DNA from: Neptunomonas concharum
Lineage (GTDB): Bacteria > Pseudomonadota > Gammaproteobacteria > Pseudomonadales > Balneatricaceae
NCBI RefSeq assembly: GCF_008630635.1
Contig: NZ_CP043869.1
Location: forward strand, 124,001-188,000
DNA: 64,000 nucleotides
Direction of reading: 5' to 3'
Shown: positions 6,402 through 17,994 of the stretch, in pieces
Position numbering within the stretch: the first letter of the stretch is position 1
Layout of the letters: each line of letters opens with the position of its first letter
Notes under the pieces: generated by a model
Database searches by the model: none
What the model was told of the DNA's origin: nothing
The model's input: only the letters and a program-made list of their open reading frames with translations
Position numbers and translations under genes: made by a program

Positions 6402-7421
6402 CTAAGATTTTTTGAGTGCTACCAAAATAGATTGAGTGACCGATGTGAGTTGTTTCTGAGCGTCTTCATCAACTGGTAGTGGACGACAAAGCTTGATCGC
6501 TTGTAGACCGGAGCGTGCGGTAAACAGCCCAGCCCCGACGCCTTGACCTGCTCGTGCTGATAAGCTGGCGGTGAGTGAGCTACTTAACAGGTGAGAACCT
6601 GCATGGATAGAAATTTCACTCAGGCCGGCAAATGCGATGTTATGCAGAACTTTTTTAAGCAGTTTCCATTGGGTAGCCGCGCCGGGGGAAATGCCATAGA
6701 TATCAGCGATCTCCCGTAGCATTTTCAGGTTCCGCCAACCGACCAGCCACATATCGAATGTGGCATAAGGGCTTAGCGCTACCATGACACCCGACTGGAC
6801 GCTATGACGATGCAGGCATCGCCTTGCGGCTTCATCCTGAGCTTGAAGTGCATGGTGGGATACATAACGAATGATTTCCCCATCGTTATACGCCGAATCA
6901 ACTTGCCGGATGGCTGTTTTAAATGTTTCGGTCAGTGGAGTATTGTCGTAGTAGTGGTCGAGTTTTTTAAGTAATACAGCCGCTTGCCCATGGGTTTTTT
7001 GGTCTTGCAGGTTGATCGCTTCTTGATGCAGCTTTTCTGCGATTTTTAACTGGCGTAAGCCTCGCATTCCTTGCCACAACCACAGTATACCTCCAACAAA
7101 TGTGATGCCTACCAGTCCACTGAATGTCACACCTAAGATAGGGTGAACCTCAAACCCCCAGCTTATTAAACGGTAGATCTCACCGATAACAGCAGCGCCA
7201 AGTAATGTTGCCACCGAACCTGCGAAGAAGCGTTTCCAACGGCTGGGCTTTTTAACGGCTTCCATTTTTTCTACGGGTTTAGTGGTTTCATCGGCGACCA
7301 TTACAACCTGCTCTACAGGTATTTCCTGGGCGAGGGGTTTCTCTGAGTGCTCGACTTCAGCTTTTTTCAGATCAGCGGGTTTGAGTATCACCGCTTCTTT
7401 CCATTGGGGCTGGTCGGCCAT
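6402..7421 (-). CDS. ycjF: YcjF-like membrane protein (TIGR01620/DUF697)
   Basis: A 339-residue inner-membrane protein of the UPF0283/YcjF family. A charged cytoplasmic N-terminus of about 80 residues is followed by two hydrophobic segments (about residues 68-92 and 95-118) and a C-terminal DUF697 domain. The start codon overlaps the ycjX stop by one base (TGATG), so translation is probably coupled. In Enterobacteria the ycjX-ycjF pair belongs to the phage-shock/envelope-stress neighbourhood; no psp genes lie next to it here. The biochemical role of the family is not established. Confidence 0.88.
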   Translation of the reverse strand: MADQPQWKEAVILKPADLKKAEVEHSEKPLAQEIPVEQVVMVADETTKPVEKMEAVKKPSRWKRFFAGSVATLLGAAVIGEIYRLISWGFEVHPILGVTFSGLVGITFVGGILWLWQGMRGLRQLKIAEKLHQEAINLQDQKTHGQAAVLLKKLDHYYDNTPLTETFKTAIRQVDSAYNDGEIIRYVSHHALQAQDEAARRCLHRHSVQSGVMVALSPYATFDMWLVGWRNLKMLREIADIYGISPGAATQWKLLKKVLHNIAFAGLSEISIHAGSHLLSSSLTASLSARAGQGVGAGLFTARSGLQAIKLCRPLPVDEDAQKQLTSVTQSILVALKKS

Positions 7422-8857
7422 CAGAACATCTCCTTGGTTAAAAACTCAATTGCTTGATCGAGCCGAATATGATGTTCTGGCTTAAGGTCGGTTAAGGGTA
7501 ATCGCCGGGGGGCAAAGTCTAAAAAACGAAAGCGGTTGCTGTTCCAATCCTGTTCACGGGGCAAGTCGGTTGGAATCTCGCCCGGGAAAAGGGCGACCTC
7601 TTCTCCGTTTTCTTTGCGGGTACCTTTAAGGCACGAGAGGGTTTGGCCATCGAGTACCGCTTCGGCGGACTCCGTTGAGCGAATGGATGCAATCGCCAGG
7701 CAGCGAGTCTCTATCCCCTCAAAACGCATATCGCGCTGCGCGTCCTGAATGATCAGTTCCAGAAACTTATCTAAGTTGTGGTGTTGGTTAGCCGTTACAT
7801 GGTCAGCCTTGGATGAGGCAAACAGTACTTTATCAATACGTGGGCTGAATAGGCGTCTAATAAAGCCAGAAGAGCCGTAATTGAAGCTTTGTAAGATCTC
7901 AGTGATGGCGAGTTTCATATCCTCAAAACAGGCTTTGCCATGATTAAGCGCTTTCAGACAATCGACTAACACCACTTGGCGATCAAAACGGGAGAAATGT
8001 TCGCGATAGAAACGTTTAACGACGTGTTCCCGATAGGCTTCGTAACGGCTTGCCAATACTTGATAATAACTACCCTCAGGTGCGGGCTCATTAAGCTCTA
8101 TGGTGAATAAAACGGGGAATATTTGTAGCAGTGGGTCACCTTGCAACTGGCCAGGGAGAATACAGCGGCCAGGCTGAATCATACTCAAACTATAGGCTTC
8201 ACCACGAAATGTATGTAATAGATCGGTGTAGGCGTCGCTTAGTACTTTAATCACGCTTTCATCAGCAGGGGCGAGCCAGTCGATAGTTTCTTGGGCGGCT
8301 AGCCAGTCTTTAGCAAGGCTGGCGCGAGGCTCAGTCGCAAAAAGCGTACGCTGCTTGTCACACCATTGGTTAAAATCCAGATTTAGCAAAGGTAGATCGA
8401 GCAGCCATTCACCGGGGTAGTCGATGATGTCCAAATAGAGTGTTGAAGTTTCTTGTACCAAGCGTTGGAGACGGCTGGCGGGGCGATAGCGAATCGCCAA
8501 TTTAACTTCGGATAAGCCAACCGTCGAAGCAGGCCAATGAGGAGGCTGTTGTCCTAAATCCTGAATAGCTTGTTTTAACGGGAAAGGCGTGTCTGAGGTT
8601 TCACTCAAGTTTTTAACGCTAATAATTCGGCCGCTACTAGCAACCTCGAAAAAAGGTAACGATTGGCTTTGATGGGCGTCAAGTAAGTGGTGCACCAGCG
8701 ATGTGATAAAGACGGTTTTTCCGCTGCGGCTCAATCCCGTCACCGCAATCTTTAAATGCCTATCTAATCCCTGTTCTACGACATCTTTCAGTTGCTGCTG
8801 AATATCATCCAGCACATCTTCACCGATTAAACGCTTGAGTTTACTTCCCAGCCCCAT
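7421..8857 (-). CDS. ycjX: YcjX-like P-loop NTPase (DUF463)
   Basis: A 478-residue protein of the YcjX/DUF463 family. A Walker A loop GLSRSGKT lies at residues 41-48, preceded by an amphipathic N-terminus. The motif DIIDYPGEW downstream resembles the switch region of a GTPase, and the segment FASSKADHV may serve as the base-specificity loop. Known members are GTP-binding proteins linked to envelope stress. The gene is first of a two-gene unit with ycjF, which overlaps it by one base. The protein is cytoplasmic or peripheral to the membrane, with no signal peptide. Confidence 0.9.
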   Translation of the reverse strand: MGLGSKLKRLIGEDVLDDIQQQLKDVVEQGLDRHLKIAVTGLSRSGKTVFITSLVHHLLDAHQSQSLPFFEVASSGRIISVKNLSETSDTPFPLKQAIQDLGQQPPHWPASTVGLSEVKLAIRYRPASRLQRLVQETSTLYLDIIDYPGEWLLDLPLLNLDFNQWCDKQRTLFATEPRASLAKDWLAAQETIDWLAPADESVIKVLSDAYTDLLHTFRGEAYSLSMIQPGRCILPGQLQGDPLLQIFPVLFTIELNEPAPEGSYYQVLASRYEAYREHVVKRFYREHFSRFDRQVVLVDCLKALNHGKACFEDMKLAITEILQSFNYGSSGFIRRLFSPRIDKVLFASSKADHVTANQHHNLDKFLELIIQDAQRDMRFEGIETRCLAIASIRSTESAEAVLDGQTLSCLKGTRKENGEEVALFPGEIPTDLPREQDWNSNRFRFLDFAPRRLPLTDLKPEHHIRLDQAIEFLTKEMF

Positions 8858-8943: not shown

Positions 8944-9324
8944 TTACTGAGGAACAGCCGCATAGGCCACGATTTCACAAAGCATTTCTTCGCGAGCAAG
9001 GCCCGCAACAACCATGGCTGCTCGGTTTGGGTAGGGTGCTTCGAAATATTCAGCGTAGACTTTATTGAATGCAGGGAGCTGGCTGCGGTCAGTGACATAG
9101 ATGAGCACTTGGGTGACATCATCCATGGTGAGCTTTGCCGCTTCAATCGTGTGCTTGAAGTTCTCCATTGTTTGGCGTGCTTGCGCTTCAATACCGCCTT
9201 CAACCACGTTGCCTTGAGCATCAATGGGGATTTGTGCGGTGGATAATTGACCGTTTGCAATCACCGCCCACTCCAGTGGGGCTTTAGATGCGAACAGCTC
9301 GGTTTTAACAGCCTGCTTGGTCAT
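8944..9324 (-). CDS. RidA/YjgF/UK114 family deaminase
   Basis: A 126-residue protein of the Rid family, the usual length. It carries the conserved Arg in PNRAAMVVAG and the C-terminal CEIVAYA segment that forms the trimer-interface active site. RidA-type enzymes hydrolyse reactive enamines/imines released by PLP or flavin enzymes to ketones and ammonia. It is the last gene of the minus-strand arm running from aldehyde dehydrogenase through the dipeptidase-like gene and the BCCT transporter, 68 nt after the transporter. That position suggests it clears an imine intermediate of this pathway rather than acting as the housekeeping RidA of branched-chain amino-acid synthesis. Confidence 0.88.
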   Translation of the reverse strand: MTKQAVKTELFASKAPLEWAVIANGQLSTAQIPIDAQGNVVEGGIEAQARQTMENFKHTIEAAKLTMDDVTQVLIYVTDRSQLPAFNKVYAEYFEAPYPNRAAMVVAGLAREEMLCEIVAYAAVPQ

Positions 9325-9392: not shown

Positions 9393-10958
9393 CTACAAAC
9401 CTTGTTCGTCGGCCATCTTGTTGGCGATTTGGGGTGCGGTCCACAGAGAAGGCAGCAACACAAGAGAAACAGGAACTGCCGTAACAACAATGAACGACTG
9501 TAGTGCTGAGATGCCGCCAGACCCGATAGAGATTAATAGTGCAGCAATTACCCCCATCATGATTCCCCAGAACACTCTGACGGAGCTTTGTGGGTGGTCA
9601 GTGCCTGTCATAACCATAGAGACGGCATACGTCATAGAGTCACCTGTGGTGGCAACAAAAATGGTCGTCAGGATCAAGAACAGAACCGAGATAATAAAGC
9701 CCATCGGTAACTGCTCTGTAATAGCCAGTAAAGCCGCAGGTAAATTAAATCCTGTGAAAGGCTCAGAAATAACGCCTGGGTTTGCAAGCTCAAAGGCCAG
9801 CCCGCTGCCACCCACAATGGTGAACCAGAAGCAGGTGATAACCGGAGCAACAATCGAGATCAGCAGAATCATTTCACGGATGGTTCTACCACGAGAGATA
9901 CGTGCAACAAACATCGCCATCAGCGGACCATAACCTAGGAACCATCCCCAGAAAAATACTGTCCACCAGTCCAACCAGCCTGGGCTTGCACGGAAGGTGG
10001 CCATAGGAATGAACTGATCAAGATAGATCCCAAAACCTTGCAGGTAACCATCAATAATGAAGCTGGTAGGGCCAAAAATTAGAATAAATGCCATTAATAA
10101 GACGGCCAAAATAACATTGGCACGGCTTAAAATCTGAATACCTCGGGCAACACCACTGACAGCCGAGAGTGTGTAGATCGCAATTAACCCAAACAGAATG
10201 ACCAGCTGCGTTGTGTAGGTATTTGGAATGCCGAACAATTTCTCCATACCAAAACTCACCTGAAGGCCAAGAAAGCCAATGGGACCCACGGTGCCTGCTA
10301 CGACAGCGAGTACACAGCATGCATCAACAATGGCGCCTAGGGGGCCGGTCATCACACGATCGCCAAACACGGGATACAAGAGTGTACGGGGTTTCAGTGG
10401 TAGACCTTTTTCATAGTGCAAGTACATAAAGACCACACCGGTGAGACTGCCTAGAATTGCCCAAGCTAAAAAGCCCCAATGCATAAAGCTTTGTGCTAAC
10501 GCGTTATAGGCGGCTTCAACAGTGCCGGTTTCGCCGCCAAACAACGGTGGTGGCGAAGTGAAGTGAGCCATGGGCTCTGCCGCAGCCCAGAATACGCCGC
10601 CACCAGCCAGTAGGGTACACATGATGATGGAAATCCACTGAAACGTAGACATTTCCGGGGTTTTTAGCCCCCCAAGTACCACTGAACCGGTGCGACCGAT
10701 GGTTAAGAACAAACCGATGATAAAGGTAAGGAGTAACAGCACCTGCCAGTAAGCGCCAAAGTATTTGGTCGATGTTGCAAATGCACTGTTTACCCACGCC
10801 GATACTAGATTAATATCGTAAAGTGCCATGACTGCAAAGAGAGCAAGCACACCGCCGCTAATTAGGAATACGGGCAAGTCGATGCCTGCCAGCCACTTAT
10901 TCTGGGTCATATCCTCAGCCTCGCTGGCAGGCAAGGTTGCCTGATTAGTTATGCTCAT
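9393..10958 (-). CDS. BCCT family betaine/carnitine-type transporter
   Basis: A 521-residue membrane protein with about 12 hydrophobic segments and the BCCT signature. A Trp-rich stretch (GWLDWWTVFFWGW) is followed by the conserved ARISRGRTIREM motif. BCCT carriers take up quaternary-ammonium zwitterions such as glycine betaine, choline or carnitine, usually with Na+ or H+. The N-terminus is short and there is no long C-terminal osmosensor tail, so a nutrient-uptake role is more likely than osmotic regulation. An SD (GGAGATAATC before ATG) supports the start. It sits between the dipeptidase-like gene and ridA in a probable four-gene catabolic operon, which points to a betaine-like substrate that is broken down. 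The exact substrate is unknown. Confidence 0.92.
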   Translation of the reverse strand: MSITNQATLPASEAEDMTQNKWLAGIDLPVFLISGGVLALFAVMALYDINLVSAWVNSAFATSTKYFGAYWQVLLLLTFIIGLFLTIGRTGSVVLGGLKTPEMSTFQWISIIMCTLLAGGGVFWAAAEPMAHFTSPPPLFGGETGTVEAAYNALAQSFMHWGFLAWAILGSLTGVVFMYLHYEKGLPLKPRTLLYPVFGDRVMTGPLGAIVDACCVLAVVAGTVGPIGFLGLQVSFGMEKLFGIPNTYTTQLVILFGLIAIYTLSAVSGVARGIQILSRANVILAVLLMAFILIFGPTSFIIDGYLQGFGIYLDQFIPMATFRASPGWLDWWTVFFWGWFLGYGPLMAMFVARISRGRTIREMILLISIVAPVITCFWFTIVGGSGLAFELANPGVISEPFTGFNLPAALLAITEQLPMGFIISVLFLILTTIFVATTGDSMTYAVSMVMTGTDHPQSSVRVFWGIMMGVIAALLISIGSGGISALQSFIVVTAVPVSLVLLPSLWTAPQIANKMADEQGL

Positions 10959-11019
10959 GATTATCTCCTGATGGATCTTATCTTTATTGGGTTATCAGGG
11001 TCACACGTTTGCTTTAAAG

Positions 11020-12033
11020 CTAGTGCGTACGTTGGGTCATAGGTTGTAATGCATCGTCCAAGAAATGGAGCCAATTTAGCCCCATAATTTTGGCAACATC
11101 TTTCTCACTGAAACCGCGTTTCAGGAGTCCATGGGTTAAGTTAGGGAAGTCGCGGCTGTCGCGGAACCACTCTAGTGGTCGAGGCCAGTCGGCATTTGAT
11201 TTTGAGCCTTCGCCGTAATCCATCTCTTTGGACCAGCGGCCATTGCGCATCCATTCCAGTACGGCAGTCGGTTGCTCTTGGCAAAGGTCAGTGCCAATGC
11301 CGATGCGATCTATATCCATTAAATCAGCCGTGCTGGCAACCATGTCGCAAAACTCATCTAGCGTGCAGTCTGGGCCATTTTTGAGATGAAATGGGTAGAG
11401 GCTAAAGCCTAGCAATCCACCGGATTCACCCAGTGCCCGAAGTACTTTATCTGACTTGTTTCGCTTGGCTTCGTGAAAGCTGAGTGGGTTTGCATGAGAG
11501 ATGATGATCGGGCGTTCCGAAATCTCAATAGCTTCCAGCGTACTGCGCTCGGCACTGTGGCTCATATCGACCACCATGCCGACGCGGTTCATTTCACGGA
11601 TGACTTGTTTGCCAAAGCGTGTAACACCGCTGTCTTCTGCCTCGTAACAACCACAGGCCAGTAAGCTTTGGTTGTTGTAGGTCAGCTGCATGATCATAAG
11701 ATTCAGCTCACGCATCACCTCGACCATGCCAATGTCATCCTCGATGGGTGAGCAGTTCTGCGCGCCGAACATAATGCCGACTTTGCCCAGTTGCTTGGCC
11801 AGACGGATATCTGCAGTGCTTCGAATCGGCATAATGAGATCACTGTTCATCTCAAAGTGTCGGTTCCACTCGGCAATTCGCATCAAGGTTTCACGAATTT
11901 GCTCATGGTACACAATGGTTGCATGAACCATGGTGACACCACCCTGATGCAGTTGCTCGAAGATGGCTCTATTCCAGTTGGAATATTGCAGACCATCAAT
12001 GACAACCAACTCTTTATGTAGCGCATTATTCAT
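11020..12033 (-). CDS. Membrane-dipeptidase family protein with altered metal site
   Basis: A 337-residue amidohydrolase-fold protein of the peptidase M19 (renal dipeptidase) family. The ATG at 12033 is preferred over a GTG at 12054 because AGGAG stands 7 nt before it. The family's N-terminal HxD metal pair (normally VIDGHxD) is replaced here by VIDGLQYSNW, while later metal-site histidines survive in DMSHSAE and IISHANP. The same substitution occurs, from memory, in the dipeptidase-like genes of Pseudomonas glycine-betaine/dimethylglycine clusters. It is therefore probably not a true dipeptidase but a hydrolase or accessory protein for N-methylated amino-acid catabolism. It lies between the aldehyde dehydrogenase and BCCT genes in one transcriptional direction. 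Confidence 0.87.
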   Translation of the reverse strand: MNNALHKELVVIDGLQYSNWNRAIFEQLHQGGVTMVHATIVYHEQIRETLMRIAEWNRHFEMNSDLIMPIRSTADIRLAKQLGKVGIMFGAQNCSPIEDDIGMVEVMRELNLMIMQLTYNNQSLLACGCYEAEDSGVTRFGKQVIREMNRVGMVVDMSHSAERSTLEAIEISERPIIISHANPLSFHEAKRNKSDKVLRALGESGGLLGFSLYPFHLKNGPDCTLDEFCDMVASTADLMDIDRIGIGTDLCQEQPTAVLEWMRNGRWSKEMDYGEGSKSNADWPRPLEWFRDSRDFPNLTHGLLKRGFSEKDVAKIMGLNWLHFLDDALQPMTQRTH

Positions 12034-12046
12034 GGCTAAACTCCTA

Positions 12047-13492
12047 CTACGCACGGATATAGGTAGTTTTTACGACGGTATAGAACTCTTTTGCGTAGGT
12101 TCCCTGCTCGCGTGGTCCGAAGCTGGAATCTTTACGACCACCAAATGGGACATGGTAGTCAGTACCCGCTGTTGGTAGATTAACCATTACACAACCGGTT
12201 TTAGCGTTACGTTTGAAGTCAGTGGCGTATTTCAACGACGTTGTGCAGATACCACCGGTTAAGCCGAAATTGGTATCGTTGAGCGTTGCTAGCGCTTCTT
12301 CGTAGTCTTTAACTTTGATGATGCAAGCGATAGGTGCGAACGCCTCTTCGCGGTTGATCGTCATTTGGTTAGTAGTTTCTGTGAAGAGTGCGGGCTGCAT
12401 GTAGTAACCTTCTTTCTCTTCAGTCAGCACGTCACCGCCATACACCAGTTTGCCGCCTTCATCTTTAGCTGTTTGTAGGTAGCGTAGGTTCTGCTCCATT
12501 TGGCGAGCATCTGCGACCGCGCCAATATGCACACCGGCTTTTAGTGGGTGGCCAACCACTAGCTGCTTCATACGTTCGATCATTGCATCCACGAAACGGT
12601 CGTGAATACCTTCGGTGACAATCAAACGAGAGGAGGCGGTACATTTTTGTCCTGTGCCGCCATAAGCACCGCCAACGGCACATTCAACGGCGTTATCCAG
12701 ATCAGCATCATCCAGTACGACCAGCGCATTCTTACTGCCCATTTCCAGTTGACATTTAACCAGATTCACGGCCGTAGCTGCCGCCACCTTGCGACCTGTC
12801 TCTAGCGATCCTGTGAAGGTGAGCGCATTAATACCGCGAGAATTAATCAGCACATCGCCGACTTCTGCACCTGGCCCCATCACAAGGTTAAAGGTGCCTG
12901 CGGGTAAGCCTTGGCGAGAAATAATTTCGGTTAGTGCCCAAGCAGAGGCGGGTACTTGGTTAGCTGGTTTCCAAACGATAGCGTTACCAAATGCCAGTGC
13001 TGGTGCAATTTTCCAAGCACCGGTAGCGGTAGGGAAGTTCCAAGGCGTAATGATGCCCACTACACCGACCGGCTCACGGCGGGTTTCAATTTCGATACCC
13101 GGGCGAACGGATTCGGCGGTTTCACCCATCTGGCGTAATACTTCCGCGGCATAGTAATGGAAGAATTGGCCGGATCTATAGGTTTCACCGACCCCTTCAG
13201 CCAGCGTTTTACCTTCTTCACGAGCGAGTATCTCGCCCAGTTCATCTTTGCGGGCAATCAGCTCATCCCCGATCGCCATGAGTACGCTATAGCGTTGCTC
13301 TAAACCGCTTTTTTGCCACTCAAGTTGACCTGCCGCAGCGGCAGCAATCGCGGCCTCTGTCTGAGCTTTATCGGCTTGTGCGTAGTGGCCGATAACATCG
13401 CTTATATCGGCTGGGCTAATATTTGCTACGCTACCCTTGTTGCCTTCAACCCACTCACCTGCAATGTAATTACGAAATACTGACTCAGACAT
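12047..13492 (-). CDS. NAD(P)-dependent aldehyde dehydrogenase
   Basis: A 481-residue aldehyde dehydrogenase. The ATG at 13492 has a GGAGG SD; an in-frame TTG at 13504 lies within that SD region and is unlikely. The general base Glu (about 250, in LEMGSKNA) and nucleophile Cys (about 284, in GQKCTASSR) are present. The MGSKNA form of the Glu motif resembles 2-oxoglutarate-semialdehyde dehydrogenases, so a C5 or N-substituted dicarboxylic semialdehyde is a reasonable substrate guess. It is the first gene of the minus arm (ald, dipeptidase-like, BCCT, ridA), divergent from lysR across a 92-nt gap that contains a LysR-type dyad. It probably oxidises the semialdehyde product of the pathway. Confidence 0.92.
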   Translation of the reverse strand: MSESVFRNYIAGEWVEGNKGSVANISPADISDVIGHYAQADKAQTEAAIAAAAAGQLEWQKSGLEQRYSVLMAIGDELIARKDELGEILAREEGKTLAEGVGETYRSGQFFHYYAAEVLRQMGETAESVRPGIEIETRREPVGVVGIITPWNFPTATGAWKIAPALAFGNAIVWKPANQVPASAWALTEIISRQGLPAGTFNLVMGPGAEVGDVLINSRGINALTFTGSLETGRKVAAATAVNLVKCQLEMGSKNALVVLDDADLDNAVECAVGGAYGGTGQKCTASSRLIVTEGIHDRFVDAMIERMKQLVVGHPLKAGVHIGAVADARQMEQNLRYLQTAKDEGGKLVYGGDVLTEEKEGYYMQPALFTETTNQMTINREEAFAPIACIIKVKDYEEALATLNDTNFGLTGGICTTSLKYATDFKRNAKTGCVMVNLPTAGTDYHVPFGGRKDSSFGPREQGTYAKEFYTVVKTTYIRA

Positions 13493-13567
13493 AATGACCT
13501 CCAAAACTAATTGGAATCATCATAGGGGGTGTGATGTAATAATAAAAATTAATAAATAATATTCTGC

Positions 13568-13584
13568 GATAAGGAAAGCTTATC
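13568..13584. promoter_or_regulatory. Candidate LysR operator, copy 1
   Basis: Perfect inverted repeat GATAAG-GAAAG-CTTATC, which contains the LysR-family T-N11-A pattern. It abuts the lysR ATG at 13585 and includes the likely SD (AAGGA), so binding could repress lysR itself while acting on the divergent aldehyde dehydrogenase operon 75 nt away. The same half-sites and spacing recur at 14526-14546. Confidence 0.65.
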
Positions 13585-14475
13585 ATGTTACCAGAGCTTA
13601 AAATTGCCCAGTTACGTCATTTTGTTTGGGTCGCCGAGTTAAAGGGGTTTCATGCGGCAGCGGAGAAAGCGCACCGCACTCAACCGGCAATTTCACTCTC
13701 TATTCGGGATCTTGAAAACAAGCTGGGGGAGCCGCTATTTGAGAAGCGTAATGCTAAAACGGCCAAAACAGAACTCACGCCCTTCGGCTGCTATTTTTTA
13801 CCAAAAGCAAAAGAGCTGATCGCACATCATGATCGTATCGCAGAAGATATGACACTCCTGTCTGAGCATAAAACAGGGCATCTTCGCCTAGCGTCTGTCC
13901 CTTCCATTGCCAGTCGGGTTTTGCCGGGGTTGTTGCACGAATTTGTTTCTGGTGCGCCGGATCTTCATATCAGCTTTTTTGATGATAACTCCGATGCTGT
14001 GCTCAAAATGGTAGAAACGCAAAAAGTGGATTTTGGAATAGCGCATCTGTTTCACGAAGAGGAGCACCCAGATAAAAGCTTTACCTCGATCTGGGAGGAT
14101 CAGATCGGCGTGGTTTGTCCCAAAGACCATCCGCTGGCTAGCGAAACTTCGTTGCATTGGAAATCACTTAGGCAGCACCGTTTAATCAGTAACGGAACCT
14201 CGCGGCTGCTTGAAGACAGCGAAGCAAGCCCTTTACTGGGGCATTCCCAGTTCTATGTCTCGAATATGATCTCTTTGATTGCGATGTTAGAAGCGGGTTT
14301 TGGCGTCACTACCTTGCCTTGGTACGCGTTCCCACAAGAAAGCACAAAGTTAAGCTTTATTCCGCTGGCTGACCCCCATGTGGTCAGGCGAATAGGGATT
14401 GTGAAACTCAATAATAAATCGCTGACGCCCCCAGCGCAGGCGTTAGTGAACTTTATCTTGGCAAAGACTGTATAA
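13585..14475 (+). CDS. LysR-family transcriptional regulator
   Basis: A 296-residue LysR regulator with an N-terminal winged helix-turn-helix (about 5-65, containing FHAAAEKAHRTQPAISLSIRDLE) and a C-terminal periplasmic-binding-protein-like effector domain (about 92-295). It is divergent from the aldehyde dehydrogenase operon and upstream of the 569-aa/DUF3726/TSUP operon. The identical dyad in both adjoining promoter regions indicates local control of all three units, with an inducer that is probably the imported substrate or an early intermediate. Autoregulation is likely because one dyad covers its own ribosome-binding region. Confidence 0.93.
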   Translation: MLPELKIAQLRHFVWVAELKGFHAAAEKAHRTQPAISLSIRDLENKLGEPLFEKRNAKTAKTELTPFGCYFLPKAKELIAHHDRIAEDMTLLSEHKTGHLRLASVPSIASRVLPGLLHEFVSGAPDLHISFFDDNSDAVLKMVETQKVDFGIAHLFHEEEHPDKSFTSIWEDQIGVVCPKDHPLASETSLHWKSLRQHRLISNGTSRLLEDSEASPLLGHSQFYVSNMISLIAMLEAGFGVTTLPWYAFPQESTKLSFIPLADPHVVRRIGIVKLNNKSLTPPAQALVNFILAKTV

Positions 14476-14525
14476 GTTATGTAGTAAACTGTTTAAATCG
14501 AATAAAAATAATAAGTAATGCTGTT

Positions 14526-14546
14526 TTGATAAGTTTGGCTTATCAA
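14526..14546. promoter_or_regulatory. Candidate LysR operator, copy 2
   Basis: Perfect inverted repeat TTGATAAG-TTTGG-CTTATCAA, arms 8 bp, spacer 5. The inner six bases of each arm and the spacer length equal those of the dyad at 13568-13584, and T-N11-A is again present. It lies about 240 nt upstream of the 569-aa gene, so it probably controls that operon. Confidence 0.65.
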
Positions 14547-14596
14547 GCGATATAAGCTTTTGATTTGATCATATCCCTTTCTCTGACGGAAGATAA

Positions 14597-14646
14597 AGCG
14601 GTATCCACGGCCAAGCAGGCTGTGATCAGATTTCACTGATACCGCT
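14597..14646 (+). promoter_or_regulatory. Long inverted repeat in operon leader
   Basis: Nine-base arms AGCGGTATC (14597-14605) and GATACCGCT (14638-14646) match perfectly across a 32-nt loop. No T-tract follows, so it is not a standard terminator. In RNA it would close a hairpin between the operator and the gene start. It could be a regulatory leader or a protein-binding dyad; no known riboswitch class was recognised. Confidence 0.4.
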
Positions 14647-14783
14647 CTGTTGATAAACATAATAAGGGGCCCGCAGAGCTTCTTTGGTACAGGCTTCCCA
14701 CACATCTATGCTGAGCGGATCTTACTTAAAAGCCGCTAAATCAAAATGAAAAATGATGTGTCGTAACCGAGAGGAAAATAATA

Positions 14784-16493
14784 ATGACGACGCCCGCTGC
14801 GATTCAAGCTGCTCTGCAGGGCAACAATGCTCTTCCGTTAAGATCTCCCCGTCAGGTTATGGATCTGGAACGCCTTGGTGCTATGCATCAGAGTCGACTC
14901 AGTTTTATGCGTACGCTTGTGCGCCGGATTATGCGGGAGCGATGGCAAATAGCACCGGTCAAGCTGACCCTTGATGAACAGGGCTATGGGACGGTTATCT
15001 ATGAAATTAATGCCCCCCATGGGCTGTTTAGTTTTGTTCTTTTCTCCAGCTACCTATCACCGGAAGACCGTAATGACCGTGTTATCGCTACCCAGTGGGA
15101 TCTAACCATGGCGCTGGTCGAAGGTAAGGTGGATGCTACGTATCTTGAGCAGCTACGTGACAATGTACCTAAGCAGGAAGCAGGGCGCGTTGATTCACGG
15201 GTGTTTGTATTATCCCGTGCTAACCGCAGTGCCCGAAACTTTGAGTATGTTGTCGATCAATTGGCTAAGGGGCAACAACCTGATATCGACAAAATAGCCG
15301 ATGTTGGGTATCTGTATCGAACAACCGCAGTGTATGGCAGTGGCAAGTTGGGCATGGCTGATTGGGAAAAAGTTAAACACTGTTGGCCTGACTTTTCTCG
15401 GCCTTTTTCTGCCGAAATGTTTGTTTGCCTTATGTTGCGCAACTTCAGTCTATTTCAGGCCGAACATATCGCGCGCTTTAAATCCCCAGAGACTTTCCAG
15501 CCGATGAAGCCAGAGATCAAACGCTATTTTGGTATTGGCAACTCGACCGGCTTAGGGATGGCACCCTATTTGATTAATCATCCATTACTGATCAATCAAT
15601 GGATAGAGATGCGAGAGTTGGGGTTGGCCAGAGTGCGAGTATTAGGGAATATCGACCATCGAGTTCAGCAGCACTTTCAAGAGCTGCTAACCCGCTGTGT
15701 AGTGCATACCGAGCAAACACGCACAGAAGATGAATGGCAAACCCAGAATAATCGGCAAGTGCTGGAGGATTTAGCGCTGCTACAAGCGAAATCCGCCGAG
15801 GGTGTTGAGAGTTGGGACGGGTTACTACAGTGGTCAGAATCTAGCTGCTCATTGCAAGGGCAAGAGCTATTGGTGTCGATTCTTTTGGAACTTTACCCTG
15901 AGCTTGTTGATGATTTAGAAGATTATTACAGCGCTGAGGAGTTTTTAGATCTCGACCCGCTTATGCCTGTCAGTGAACTACAGCGGGTCATTGAACAGCG
16001 GTACGACTGGGCATTGGCCATAGACTTCTCAGAATCGGGCGCTAAAGAGACTTTCTGGTATCGCTCAGAAGAGAAGATGGAGCCACGCTTAGGTAATACC
16101 GAACGGGAGCAGGGTAAAGAAAAACAGATGGCGCTGGGGGTGGGGTATGCCGTTCGAAAATGCTACGACCAGCTCTGCGAGTATGTCCGAGAATATCCAG
16201 AACATACGACGGCGCGCTTTATGGTGGCCCGGCCAAAATTAAGAGGTATTGTGCGCCGTATTCAAAGTATGAATCGCTGTGTTTATGGGGATATTCAGGC
16301 CAACCTTCTAGAGAGGGATGTGCTACCCATGCACCTTCTCAGAGCCAAACTCGCGTTTTTTGGTGTGAGTAAGTTTGATCCGCGTTCCAAGCTTTGGGTG
16401 CGCAATACGATGTTCCAAGGTGCGCCTTTACTTGAAGATATCGGTAGAACCTTTAACGATGACTGGTTTATGCCACTCGCCCCCCAGCTGTAG
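14784..16493 (+). CDS. Unrecognised 569-aa cytoplasmic protein in catabolic locus
   Basis: I do not recognise a family. The protein is soluble, with no signal peptide or membrane segment. It is rich in Arg, Leu and Glu, with a notable small-residue motif GIGNSTGLGMAPYLINHP near residue 253, an acidic stretch around residues 370-400 (PELVDDLEDYYSAEEFLDLD) and several Trp/Tyr-rich segments near the C-terminus (FNDDWFMP). No Walker, Rossmann GxGxxG, CxxC or metal-binding cluster is evident. It is first of a three-gene plus-strand unit, followed after 10 nt by the DUF3726 gene, and downstream of a LysR-type dyad. Its size, fixed position and partner suggest an enzyme or enzyme subunit working with the DUF3726 protein, but that is inference. 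Confidence 0.85.
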   Translation: MTTPAAIQAALQGNNALPLRSPRQVMDLERLGAMHQSRLSFMRTLVRRIMRERWQIAPVKLTLDEQGYGTVIYEINAPHGLFSFVLFSSYLSPEDRNDRVIATQWDLTMALVEGKVDATYLEQLRDNVPKQEAGRVDSRVFVLSRANRSARNFEYVVDQLAKGQQPDIDKIADVGYLYRTTAVYGSGKLGMADWEKVKHCWPDFSRPFSAEMFVCLMLRNFSLFQAEHIARFKSPETFQPMKPEIKRYFGIGNSTGLGMAPYLINHPLLINQWIEMRELGLARVRVLGNIDHRVQQHFQELLTRCVVHTEQTRTEDEWQTQNNRQVLEDLALLQAKSAEGVESWDGLLQWSESSCSLQGQELLVSILLELYPELVDDLEDYYSAEEFLDLDPLMPVSELQRVIEQRYDWALAIDFSESGAKETFWYRSEEKMEPRLGNTEREQGKEKQMALGVGYAVRKCYDQLCEYVREYPEHTTARFMVARPKLRGIVRRIQSMNRCVYGDIQANLLERDVLPMHLLRAKLAFFGVSKFDPRSKLWVRNTMFQGAPLLEDIGRTFNDDWFMPLAPQL

Positions 16494-16503
16494 GAGAGTC
16501 ACA

Positions 16504-17253
16504 ATGCATGTTTCTATGAATGAGTTAAAAGCGGCTCTGCGACGCTGTTTTGAGGCGACAGGGTATTTTGTCGGCAACTATGAAGATGCTGCCAATATGA
16601 TCCTGTGGTTGGAAAAGCATGGCTTGGGTGGATTAAGAGAGCTGCAACGGGCATTGCCCTTTATCAGTGTTGATCGTGATAAACCCCTAAGTACGGTGGT
16701 TTATGAAGACAGCACATCGGCGATCATTGATAGCCATGGTCGCAGTGCGCTGAACTGTATTGCTGCATCTGTTGATCTGGCTCACGCCAAAGCATTGGAG
16801 TGCGGGATTGCTACCGTCACGGTACACAATTGTCATAATCGTAAGTTCATTCTCAAGGCGCTAACCGACTGTGGTCGTCGCGGCATCAGTGTTGCGGCTT
16901 ATTGGCGGAACGGTACGCAAGGCGTCACAGAGCATACGGCAGCCATCAAAGCAGGTGCACGCTACCCAAGCTACAGTGAAGCGTTGACGAACCTAGATGC
17001 GAACGTGGATGACCGGCAGGCGCTGACCATTATTTGTAGTTCCCGCGTGGATTTGACCTCGTCGCTGCAAAATTCGTATGGCAATCGTAATGCCAGCCAT
17101 ATCAGTGCTCAGCAAGTGGAAGAGAACAAAACCCACAGCGTTGATTTTGGTATCGATATTGATGAGGCACTATGGGCAGAGATCAATCGTATCGGCGAAG
17201 GTATTTTGGTAGAGAACAGTGAGCAATCCCGACAAGGTGCGGGTGGCCGCTGA
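16504..17253 (+). CDS. DUF3726 domain protein
   Basis: A 249-residue protein. The ATG at 16504 is chosen for its TAGGAGAG SD; a longer frame reaching back to 16375 runs inside the preceding gene. The N-terminus (MNELKAALRRCFEATGYF, then EDAANMILWLEKHGLGGL) matches what I recall of DUF3726. The helix with a following HGLGG loosely resembles the N-terminus of LDH2-type malate/lactate dehydrogenases and ketimine reductases, though no known cofactor site is evident. It begins 10 nt after the 569-aa gene and is probably translated from the same message. No function is assigned to the family that I can state with certainty. A reductase or partner subunit for the 569-aa protein is one possibility. 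Confidence 0.82.
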   Translation: MHVSMNELKAALRRCFEATGYFVGNYEDAANMILWLEKHGLGGLRELQRALPFISVDRDKPLSTVVYEDSTSAIIDSHGRSALNCIAASVDLAHAKALECGIATVTVHNCHNRKFILKALTDCGRRGISVAAYWRNGTQGVTEHTAAIKAGARYPSYSEALTNLDANVDDRQALTIICSSRVDLTSSLQNSYGNRNASHISAQQVEENKTHSVDFGIDIDEALWAEINRIGEGILVENSEQSRQGAGGR

Positions 17254-17262
17254 TTTATATCG

Positions 17263-17994
17263 GTGTTCTACGCGCCTTCTGAGTGGCTCGCGCTGCTGGT
17301 GGTGATACTAGGTTGTGCGCTACAAGCCAGAGTCGGTATTGGCTTTGGCTTATTGGCAGCGCCGCTACTCTTTTTGATAGATCCGCTTTATGTGCCTGGC
17401 TCCATACTGTTTTTAGGTGGCTTTCTCTCCATGATCATTGTTTGGCGGAGTCTGCACCCTGTGGTTTGGTCTCGGGTCTGGATCGCTAATGGTGCCAGAT
17501 TTGTCGGCAGTGGTGTGGGGGCATGGGGGCTTTTGCTGCTGTCACCCGCGGCGTTAAGTCTGGTCTTTGGCGTGGCTTTGCTATGTGCTGTGTTGATCAG
17601 TGGCAGGCAACTCCATCATGACATTCAGCTTAATACGTCAAATCTGCTTAACGGCGGCTTTTTTTCCGGCGTTATCGGAACGGCTACCTCTGTGGGTGGG
17701 CCTCCTATGGCCTTGGTATATCAATCGGCATCGCCACAGGTAGCGCGTTGTGAATTAGCGGCTTTTTTTCTTATCGGCACACCCATCTCACTGGGTTGGT
17801 TATGGGCCCAAGGCCTGTTTGGTGAAACAGCGCTGATACTAAGCCTTAAACTCTTACCGGGTGTTGTGGCAGGTTACGGGTTATCTGAATGGTTAAGCGC
17901 CCGCGGTGTGTCACCCCCTCAACGATTAGCATTGTTGAGTTTGTCGGCGATTGCGGCATGTGTTGTCATTGGCAAAGGTCTTATCGCGTTGTAG
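17263..17994 (+). CDS. TSUP (TauE/SafE) family anion permease
   Basis: A 243-residue polytopic membrane protein with about eight hydrophobic segments and two related halves, typical of the TSUP/TauE/SafE family. Members move sulfite, sulfoacetate or other organic anions. The start is a GTG at 17263, 9 nt after the DUF3726 stop. The motif SVGGPPMALVYQ in the second half is the family's conserved glycine-proline segment. As the third gene of the plus arm it may export an end product (for example an organic acid) or import a co-substrate. Its end overlaps the convergent pseudouridine synthase gene by 14 nt. Confidence 0.87.
   Translation: MFYAPSEWLALLVVILGCALQARVGIGFGLLAAPLLFLIDPLYVPGSILFLGGFLSMIIVWRSLHPVVWSRVWIANGARFVGSGVGAWGLLLLSPAALSLVFGVALLCAVLISGRQLHHDIQLNTSNLLNGGFFSGVIGTATSVGGPPMALVYQSASPQVARCELAAFFLIGTPISLGWLWAQGLFGETALILSLKLLPGVVAGYGLSEWLSARGVSPPQRLALLSLSAIAACVVIGKGLIAL

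Follow-up and report, generated by a model that had tools for sequence, protein, structure and literature searches.

A LysR-regulated gene cluster of Neptunomonas concharum predicted to break down an N-methylated ring acid, most likely homarine

Phytoplankton contain homarine (N-methylpicolinate) and similar N-methylated rings as abundant osmolytes. Ruegeria pomeroyi depleted ten diatom metabolites, homarine among them, with mean lifetimes no longer than 2 h. According to a 2026 paper, which cites Ferrer-Gonzalez et al. (2026, Nat Microbiol 11:1531) for the pathway, homarine catabolism involves N-methylglutamate dehydrogenase. Here we describe an eight-gene locus of Neptunomonas concharum, found in a stretch of 64,000 nucleotides (contig NZ_CP043869.1, positions 124,001 to 188,000), hereafter the window. 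We read the locus, with a probability of about 0.7, as a LysR regulon for growth on a zwitterionic acid with an N-methylated ring, for which homarine is the most likely candidate; the substrate and the chemistry are what we infer.

The homarine pathway of Ferrer-Gonzalez et al. likewise belongs to marine and environmental bacteria and, according to the paper citing it, includes demethylation by an enzyme of the N-methylglutamate dehydrogenase kind. The window differs in carrying RidA, with no sox-type genes near the cluster and no SoxD found in the genome by a search that was positive in three of three control records. In the open literature searched we found no homarine gene list, no N-methylglutamate gene neighbourhoods and no description of enzymes that open rings of the homarine type. 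A homarine operon is reportedly called homABCDER and is said to be LysR-regulated, with five genes plus the regulator; the name was not found in the same literature. The trigonelline (tgn) pathway has in common with our reading of the window a LysR regulator, an aldehyde dehydrogenase and an N-methylpyridinium acid substrate, but the window genes lack its flavin oxygenase/reductase pair.

Regulation and inheritance of the two arms

The eight genes form two divergent arms, ridA-BCCT-M19-ALDH on the - strand and LysR-U569-DUF3726-TSUP on the + strand, where ALDH denotes aldehyde dehydrogenase and U569 is our name for the 569-amino-acid protein of the + strand arm (Table 1). The 3.56-Mb genome has exactly two copies of the palindrome GATAAG-N5-CTTATC, and each arm is preceded by one of them. 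With one mismatch allowed, only these two exact operators were recovered from the window, compared to 0.13 expected, and the genome yielded 10 places in total, compared to 9 for a reversed-pattern control. A wider LysR regulon was rejected because the eight additional sites, each with one mismatch, represent the background level set by this control. Relatives with divergent arms retained the core of the operator. Among 46 such relatives, ATAAG-N5-CTTAT was found before ALDH in 30, before U569 in 36 and before both in 27, and for 29 of the 30 sites preceding ALDH the distance to where the ALDH match begins was 81-87 bp. In 45 divergent loci, the two intergenic regions (23.8 kb) held 66 core sites while the remaining 883 kb held 1.

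Identical operators before both arms tie the arms together in one regulon, and from the sequence we consider it nearly certain that a single LysR regulon spans them and that the catabolic cluster is real and ordered. LysR would bind the two identical palindromes and thereby switch both arms. Two unrelated operons might instead lie side by side by chance, as the divergence of the arms and the distance of 2.5-3 kb between LysR and U569 in Colwellia would allow. This explanation is highly improbable and was rejected, because the operators are shared by both arms; the single co-directional run in which the same genes are found in alpha-proteobacteria also argues against it.

A scan of named genomes for U569 gave 48 loci, mostly from Oceanospirillales with some from Pseudomonas, Colwellia and Marinobacter. 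ALDH and the M19 gene were in one cluster at 44 of these. Three of the other four (L024, L031 and L037; L numbers designate loci) are on contigs of 3-8 kb, and the fourth (L032), with 10 kb of upstream sequence present, is a real absence. U569 was also matched on 168 plasmid records, including those of Sinorhizobium, Phaeobacter, Aminobacter, Vibrio and Caballeronia, of which 17 were chosen to be examined in detail. Sampling of 398 genomes from the whole phylum turned up the U569 module in 29, and one alpha-proteobacterial family, represented by one genome per genus, had it in 91 of 198. From the family, 80 places were taken, and others came from the phylum sample; ten partial or contig-end places were left out. 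The pooled set had 177 loci, of which 156 were counted after the removal of 21 with short flanks.

Genes were scored as near U569 if the gene centres were no more than 10.5 kb apart. By this measure DUF3726 was near U569 in 153 of the 156 loci, M19 in 149, ALDH and LysR in 98 each, BCCT in 63 and TSUP in 26. The first-pass annotation of this DNA had needed the arms to be inherited together and would have been refuted by arms that rarely co-occur; with ALDH and M19, both from the opposite arm, so often present, that objection falls. TSUP was rejected as a core gene, being the least conserved member. Roseobacter clusters (L064, for example) consist of LysR plus ALDH-M19-U569-DUF3726-Ldh, where Ldh is a full-length type-2 malate/lactate dehydrogenase (Ldh_2). 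This make-up of five genes and a regulator agrees in number with the operon reportedly named homABCDER.

Proposed alternative exits and candidate first enzymes

RidA was near U569 in 60 of the 156 loci and Ldh in 51, and no locus had both (Fisher p 1.5e-14, kinship ignored). On the U569 tree, which was built with FastTree only and has its long branches flagged, at least 8 switches between the RidA and Ldh states were counted among 111 labelled rows. RidA and Ldh never changed in the same way in 11 independent pairs. In Marinomonas vulgaris (L008), which is next to the window on this tree, the Ldh gene occupies the RidA position. That the two are never in the same cluster fits a single N-methyl-imino-acid intermediate with two alternative exits, and a common 2-(N-methylimino) acid, either hydrolysed or reduced, would be the simplest reading of the alternation. 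An imine-clearing role had been proposed for RidA, and its strict alternation with an imine-reductase-type Ldh argues for that proposal.

The predicted activities of both proteins are in keeping with these exits. The nearest PDB entry to the Ldh of the Ruegeria TM1040 cluster was the delta1-piperideine-2-carboxylate reductase 1wtj (4.8e-53). All 61 aligned RidA rows had Glu117, and the arginine of the P-x-R motif was present in 48 + 13 of them, over two alignment columns; together with the PF01042 match, this arginine points to a Rid fold with the presumed catalytic Arg. The window RidA shares its fold family, the P-x-R Arg and the Glu with the RidA/YjgF family but scores under the TIGR00004 cut-off (73.1 compared to 106.25 bits).

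Demethylases of the soxA, soxB or dimethylglycine-dehydrogenase type were near 11 of the 51 Ldh clusters, none of the 60 RidA clusters and 3 of the 45 clusters with neither; soxA and soxB exceeded their NCBIfam cut-offs. In the 156 loci, purU was found in 3 and folD in 1. RidA would predict the release of methylamine and Ldh the recycling of the N-methyl carbon through folate and, if this is true, bacteria have swapped hydrolytic and reductive exits at least eight times. The presence of RidA and the lack of SoxD in the genome of the window agree with the hydrolytic exit. For Type III glutamine synthetase, the genome gave scores below the cut-off only, and a methylamine-specific ligase was not searched for. 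An orphan SoxG-like gene is present elsewhere in the genome at approximately 2510032-2510598 (L130:8032-8598). It adjoins apparent genes for gcvT, an amino-acid symporter, serine dehydratase and glyA, and genes to its right were read by eye as mevalonate-pathway-like.

Neither the U569 sequence alone nor a profile of it matched anything in Pfam, NCBIfam or the PDB sequences. The structural model of U569 was of moderate quality (predicted local distance difference test, pLDDT, 71.8), weakest at the conserved motifs, and matched no PDB fold at E <= 0.001 (best E 0.22). Across 97 rows many residues, with Arg, Asp, Glu, Asn, Trp and Tyr prominent among them, persisted in 93% or more, and such conservation of polar residues is a pattern as in an enzyme. 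The U569 and DUF3726 genes were no more than 150 nt apart in 147 of 153 pairs, with a median gap of -3 nt, so that an overlap of a few bases is usual. The two were fused in two loci, L058 (annotated as one gene) and L175. Fusion and constant pairing support U569 and DUF3726 as the probable makers of the unusual step, the part in which the first-pass annotation had cast them.

The DUF3726 model (pLDDT 85.2) gave 27 PDB matches at E <= 0.001, all of the type-2 malate/lactate dehydrogenase kind and 1wtj among them. Template modelling (TM) scores by query length against the Ldh_2 folds of the PDB were 0.57-0.67. Judged by this model, DUF3726 is a cut-down type-2 malate/lactate dehydrogenase fold; it differs from Ldh_2 in its length and in scoring under the Ldh_2 Pfam cut-off. 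At a median of 216 compared to 336 amino acids, DUF3726 is much shorter than Ldh and may therefore be a partner in reduced form, possibly with no catalytic role. No papers on DUF3726 were found in the literature searched.

The M19 protein had been labelled HxD-less, and the label holds. Pfam M19 aligned only from profile position 29 and HxD was absent in 150 of 150 aligned rows, in which Gln91, His158, His179 and Asp248 were invariant. Gln91 replaces the bridging Glu, where the identities of the metal ligands (HxD and the bridging Glu) are those we presume from renal dipeptidase and the register is from the alignment with 2i5g. This was the closest PDB entry (6.6e-75), and it has the same changes in the alignment. 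Fold-level homology with membrane/renal dipeptidase extends over residues 22-332, and two His and one Asp are kept, but the loss of the metal motif in every row led us to reject dipeptidase as the probable function.

Substrate and competing readings

The mechanism we propose begins with the BCCT transporter, which would import a homarine-type substrate. Uptake of a betaine type had been suggested before, and it is in keeping with BCCT here or, in Rhizobiales records, with a glycine-betaine-type ABC transporter. A complex of U569 and DUF3726, together with the non-canonical M19 protein, would dearomatise and open the ring, and ALDH would oxidise the resulting amino-semialdehyde. This would yield a 2-(N-methylimino/enamino) dicarboxylate, which RidA would hydrolyse in this genome to a 2-oxo acid (2-oxoglutarate if the substrate is homarine) and methylamine. 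Where the cluster has its alternative form, the imine-reductase-type Ldh would instead reduce the dicarboxylate to an N-methyl-amino acid, which folate-linked oxidases would then demethylate. Two unassigned protein families would thereby gain a shared, testable role.

The first attack may require a new type of enzyme, a proposal we make tentatively and at slightly under even odds. U569 and DUF3726 could, with the same reserve, be a new two-component enzyme class in which a protein of a fold absent from the PDB is paired with a partner derived from a reductase. Such an enzyme would open the ring of an N-methylpyridinium compound without a Rieske or flavin oxygenase, and two swappable exits (RidA or imine reduction) would follow.

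Homarine matches the combination of a single N-methyl group, an alpha-imino acid and a C5 semialdehyde. This idea from the first-pass annotation is favoured indirectly, by the N-demethylases beside some clusters and by the published statement on N-methylglutamate dehydrogenase, and the overall reading to which it belonged is supported in part. The same module might act on another N-methylated ring betaine or amino acid, such as pipecolate betaine, stachydrine, trigonelline or an N-methylated histidine derivative. Many carriers are soil or plant bacteria (Sinorhizobium, Aminobacter and Caballeronia), some clusters have glycine-betaine-type ABC transporters, one locus (L110) adjoins hut genes and two others (L120 and L121) adjoin an MTTB-family methyltransferase gene, recognised in L121 by its sequence start. 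Such a substrate is nonetheless unlikely, since the eight genes lack the Rieske or flavin demethylases and oxygenases that we take to act on stachydrine, carnitine and trigonelline, an absence the first-pass annotation had also remarked on. ALDH and the alternation of RidA with Ldh are also less consistent with a dimethylated substrate than with an alpha-imino acid that bears a single N-methyl group.

Several results weigh against the homarine regulon as we have drawn it. The core operator was absent before one or both arms in 19 of the 46 divergent loci and, outside the divergent layout, was seen only in L098 and L100, before ALDH; the LysR proteins of these two loci are more distant (48-49% identity). 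ALDH was missing near U569 in 58 of the 156 loci, and neither RidA nor Ldh was near U569 in 45. When kinship was taken into account, the alternation of RidA and Ldh was only modestly significant (median p 0.031 over the 11 independent pairs, range 0.0156-0.25) and the link between Ldh and demethylases was not significant (median p 1). The sequence match of DUF3726 to Ldh_2 was weak (3.1e-06, and 27 bits compared to the Pfam gathering score of 38.8), and hhalign aligned DUF3726 with the clustered Ldh proteins over 51 columns only. Finally, the U569 tree has a supported group, 20 Rhodobacteraceae-like rows in all, in which the U569-DUF3726-M19 triad is found with no RidA, Ldh or ALDH nearby.

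This last group indicates that the triad may have a wider role, and suggests a housekeeping or repair role for it in those genomes. By extension, the triad could serve generally to clear or repair a metabolite that is damaged or N-methylated, and the window cluster would be one catabolic use of it; 16 loci without ALDH, which adjoin a YcjX-like gene instead, also speak for this. We consider it improbable, however, since in the lineage of the window the triad is always accompanied by a transporter and a regulator where the contig allows, except in L032, and the genes missing from the group may be elsewhere in those genomes. The regulon for a homarine-like ring acid remains our preferred reading.

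Gene inventory and neighbouring genes

Seven of the eight proteins met their Pfam cut-offs, the exception being U569. The best NCBIfam match of ALDH was NF042993, at 486 bits under a cut-off of 770. The first-pass annotation had placed the cluster at 9393-17994. All the genes it named are present, but ridA falls outside that interval.

Table 1. Genes and operator sites of the locus, in window coordinates.
Feature	Position	Strand	Assignment and evidence
ridA	8944-9324	-	Predicted Rid-family imine/enamine hydrolase; terminal gene of the - arm; PF01042 1.2e-22
BCCT transporter	9393-10958	-	PF02028 1.8e-154; predicted betaine-type uptake
M19-like protein	11020-12033	-	PF01244 6.1e-80 from profile position 29; predicted non-dipeptidase
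ALDH	12047-13492	-	PF00171 1.3e-153; nearest 2-oxoglutarate-semialdehyde dehydrogenases
Operator 1, GATAAG-N5-CTTATC	13568-13584		Adjoins LysR start, ~84 bp from ALDH start
LysR-type regulator	13585-14475	+	PF00126 and PF03466; operators on either side
Operator 2, GATAAG-N5-CTTATC	14528-14544		Upstream of U569
U569	14784-16493	+	No known family or fold; candidate first-attack enzyme
DUF3726 protein	16504-17253	+	PF12525 3.7e-25; U569 partner
TSUP (TauE/SafE) permease	17263-17994	+	PF01925 1.3e-17; accessory

The surroundings of U569 varied among more distant carriers. In L055, L056 and L066 (Sinorhizobium and Neorhizobium), a distant U569 of approximately 30% identity shared its cluster with an M19 dipeptidase, an ABC transporter and a small hypothetical protein, and IclR replaced LysR; these clusters likely serve a different substrate. 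In L110, U569-DUF3726-Ldh adjoins urocanase and HutF-like genes, with no recognised M19 or ALDH nearby. The triad of L120 and L121 adjoins, in addition to the MTTB-family methyltransferase, homocysteine S-methyltransferase, phosphoenolpyruvate (PEP)-mutase-like and dimethylglycine-dehydrogenase-like proteins. All four were assigned by Pfam in L120; in L121 only the dimethylglycine-dehydrogenase-like protein was, and the others were recognised by similar sequence starts.

The members of the 20-row group, which include L122-L127 and L183-L196, carry U569-DUF3726, mostly with M19, and no transporter, regulator or ALDH nearby. The 16 loci of triads without ALDH that adjoin the YcjX-like gene are L123-L126, L184-L189 and L191-L196. 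The cluster in the window also adjoins a YcjX-like gene (7421-8857), a neighbour seen in none of its 48 closer relatives, and its presence beside both the window cluster and the 16 triad loci is probably a coincidence.

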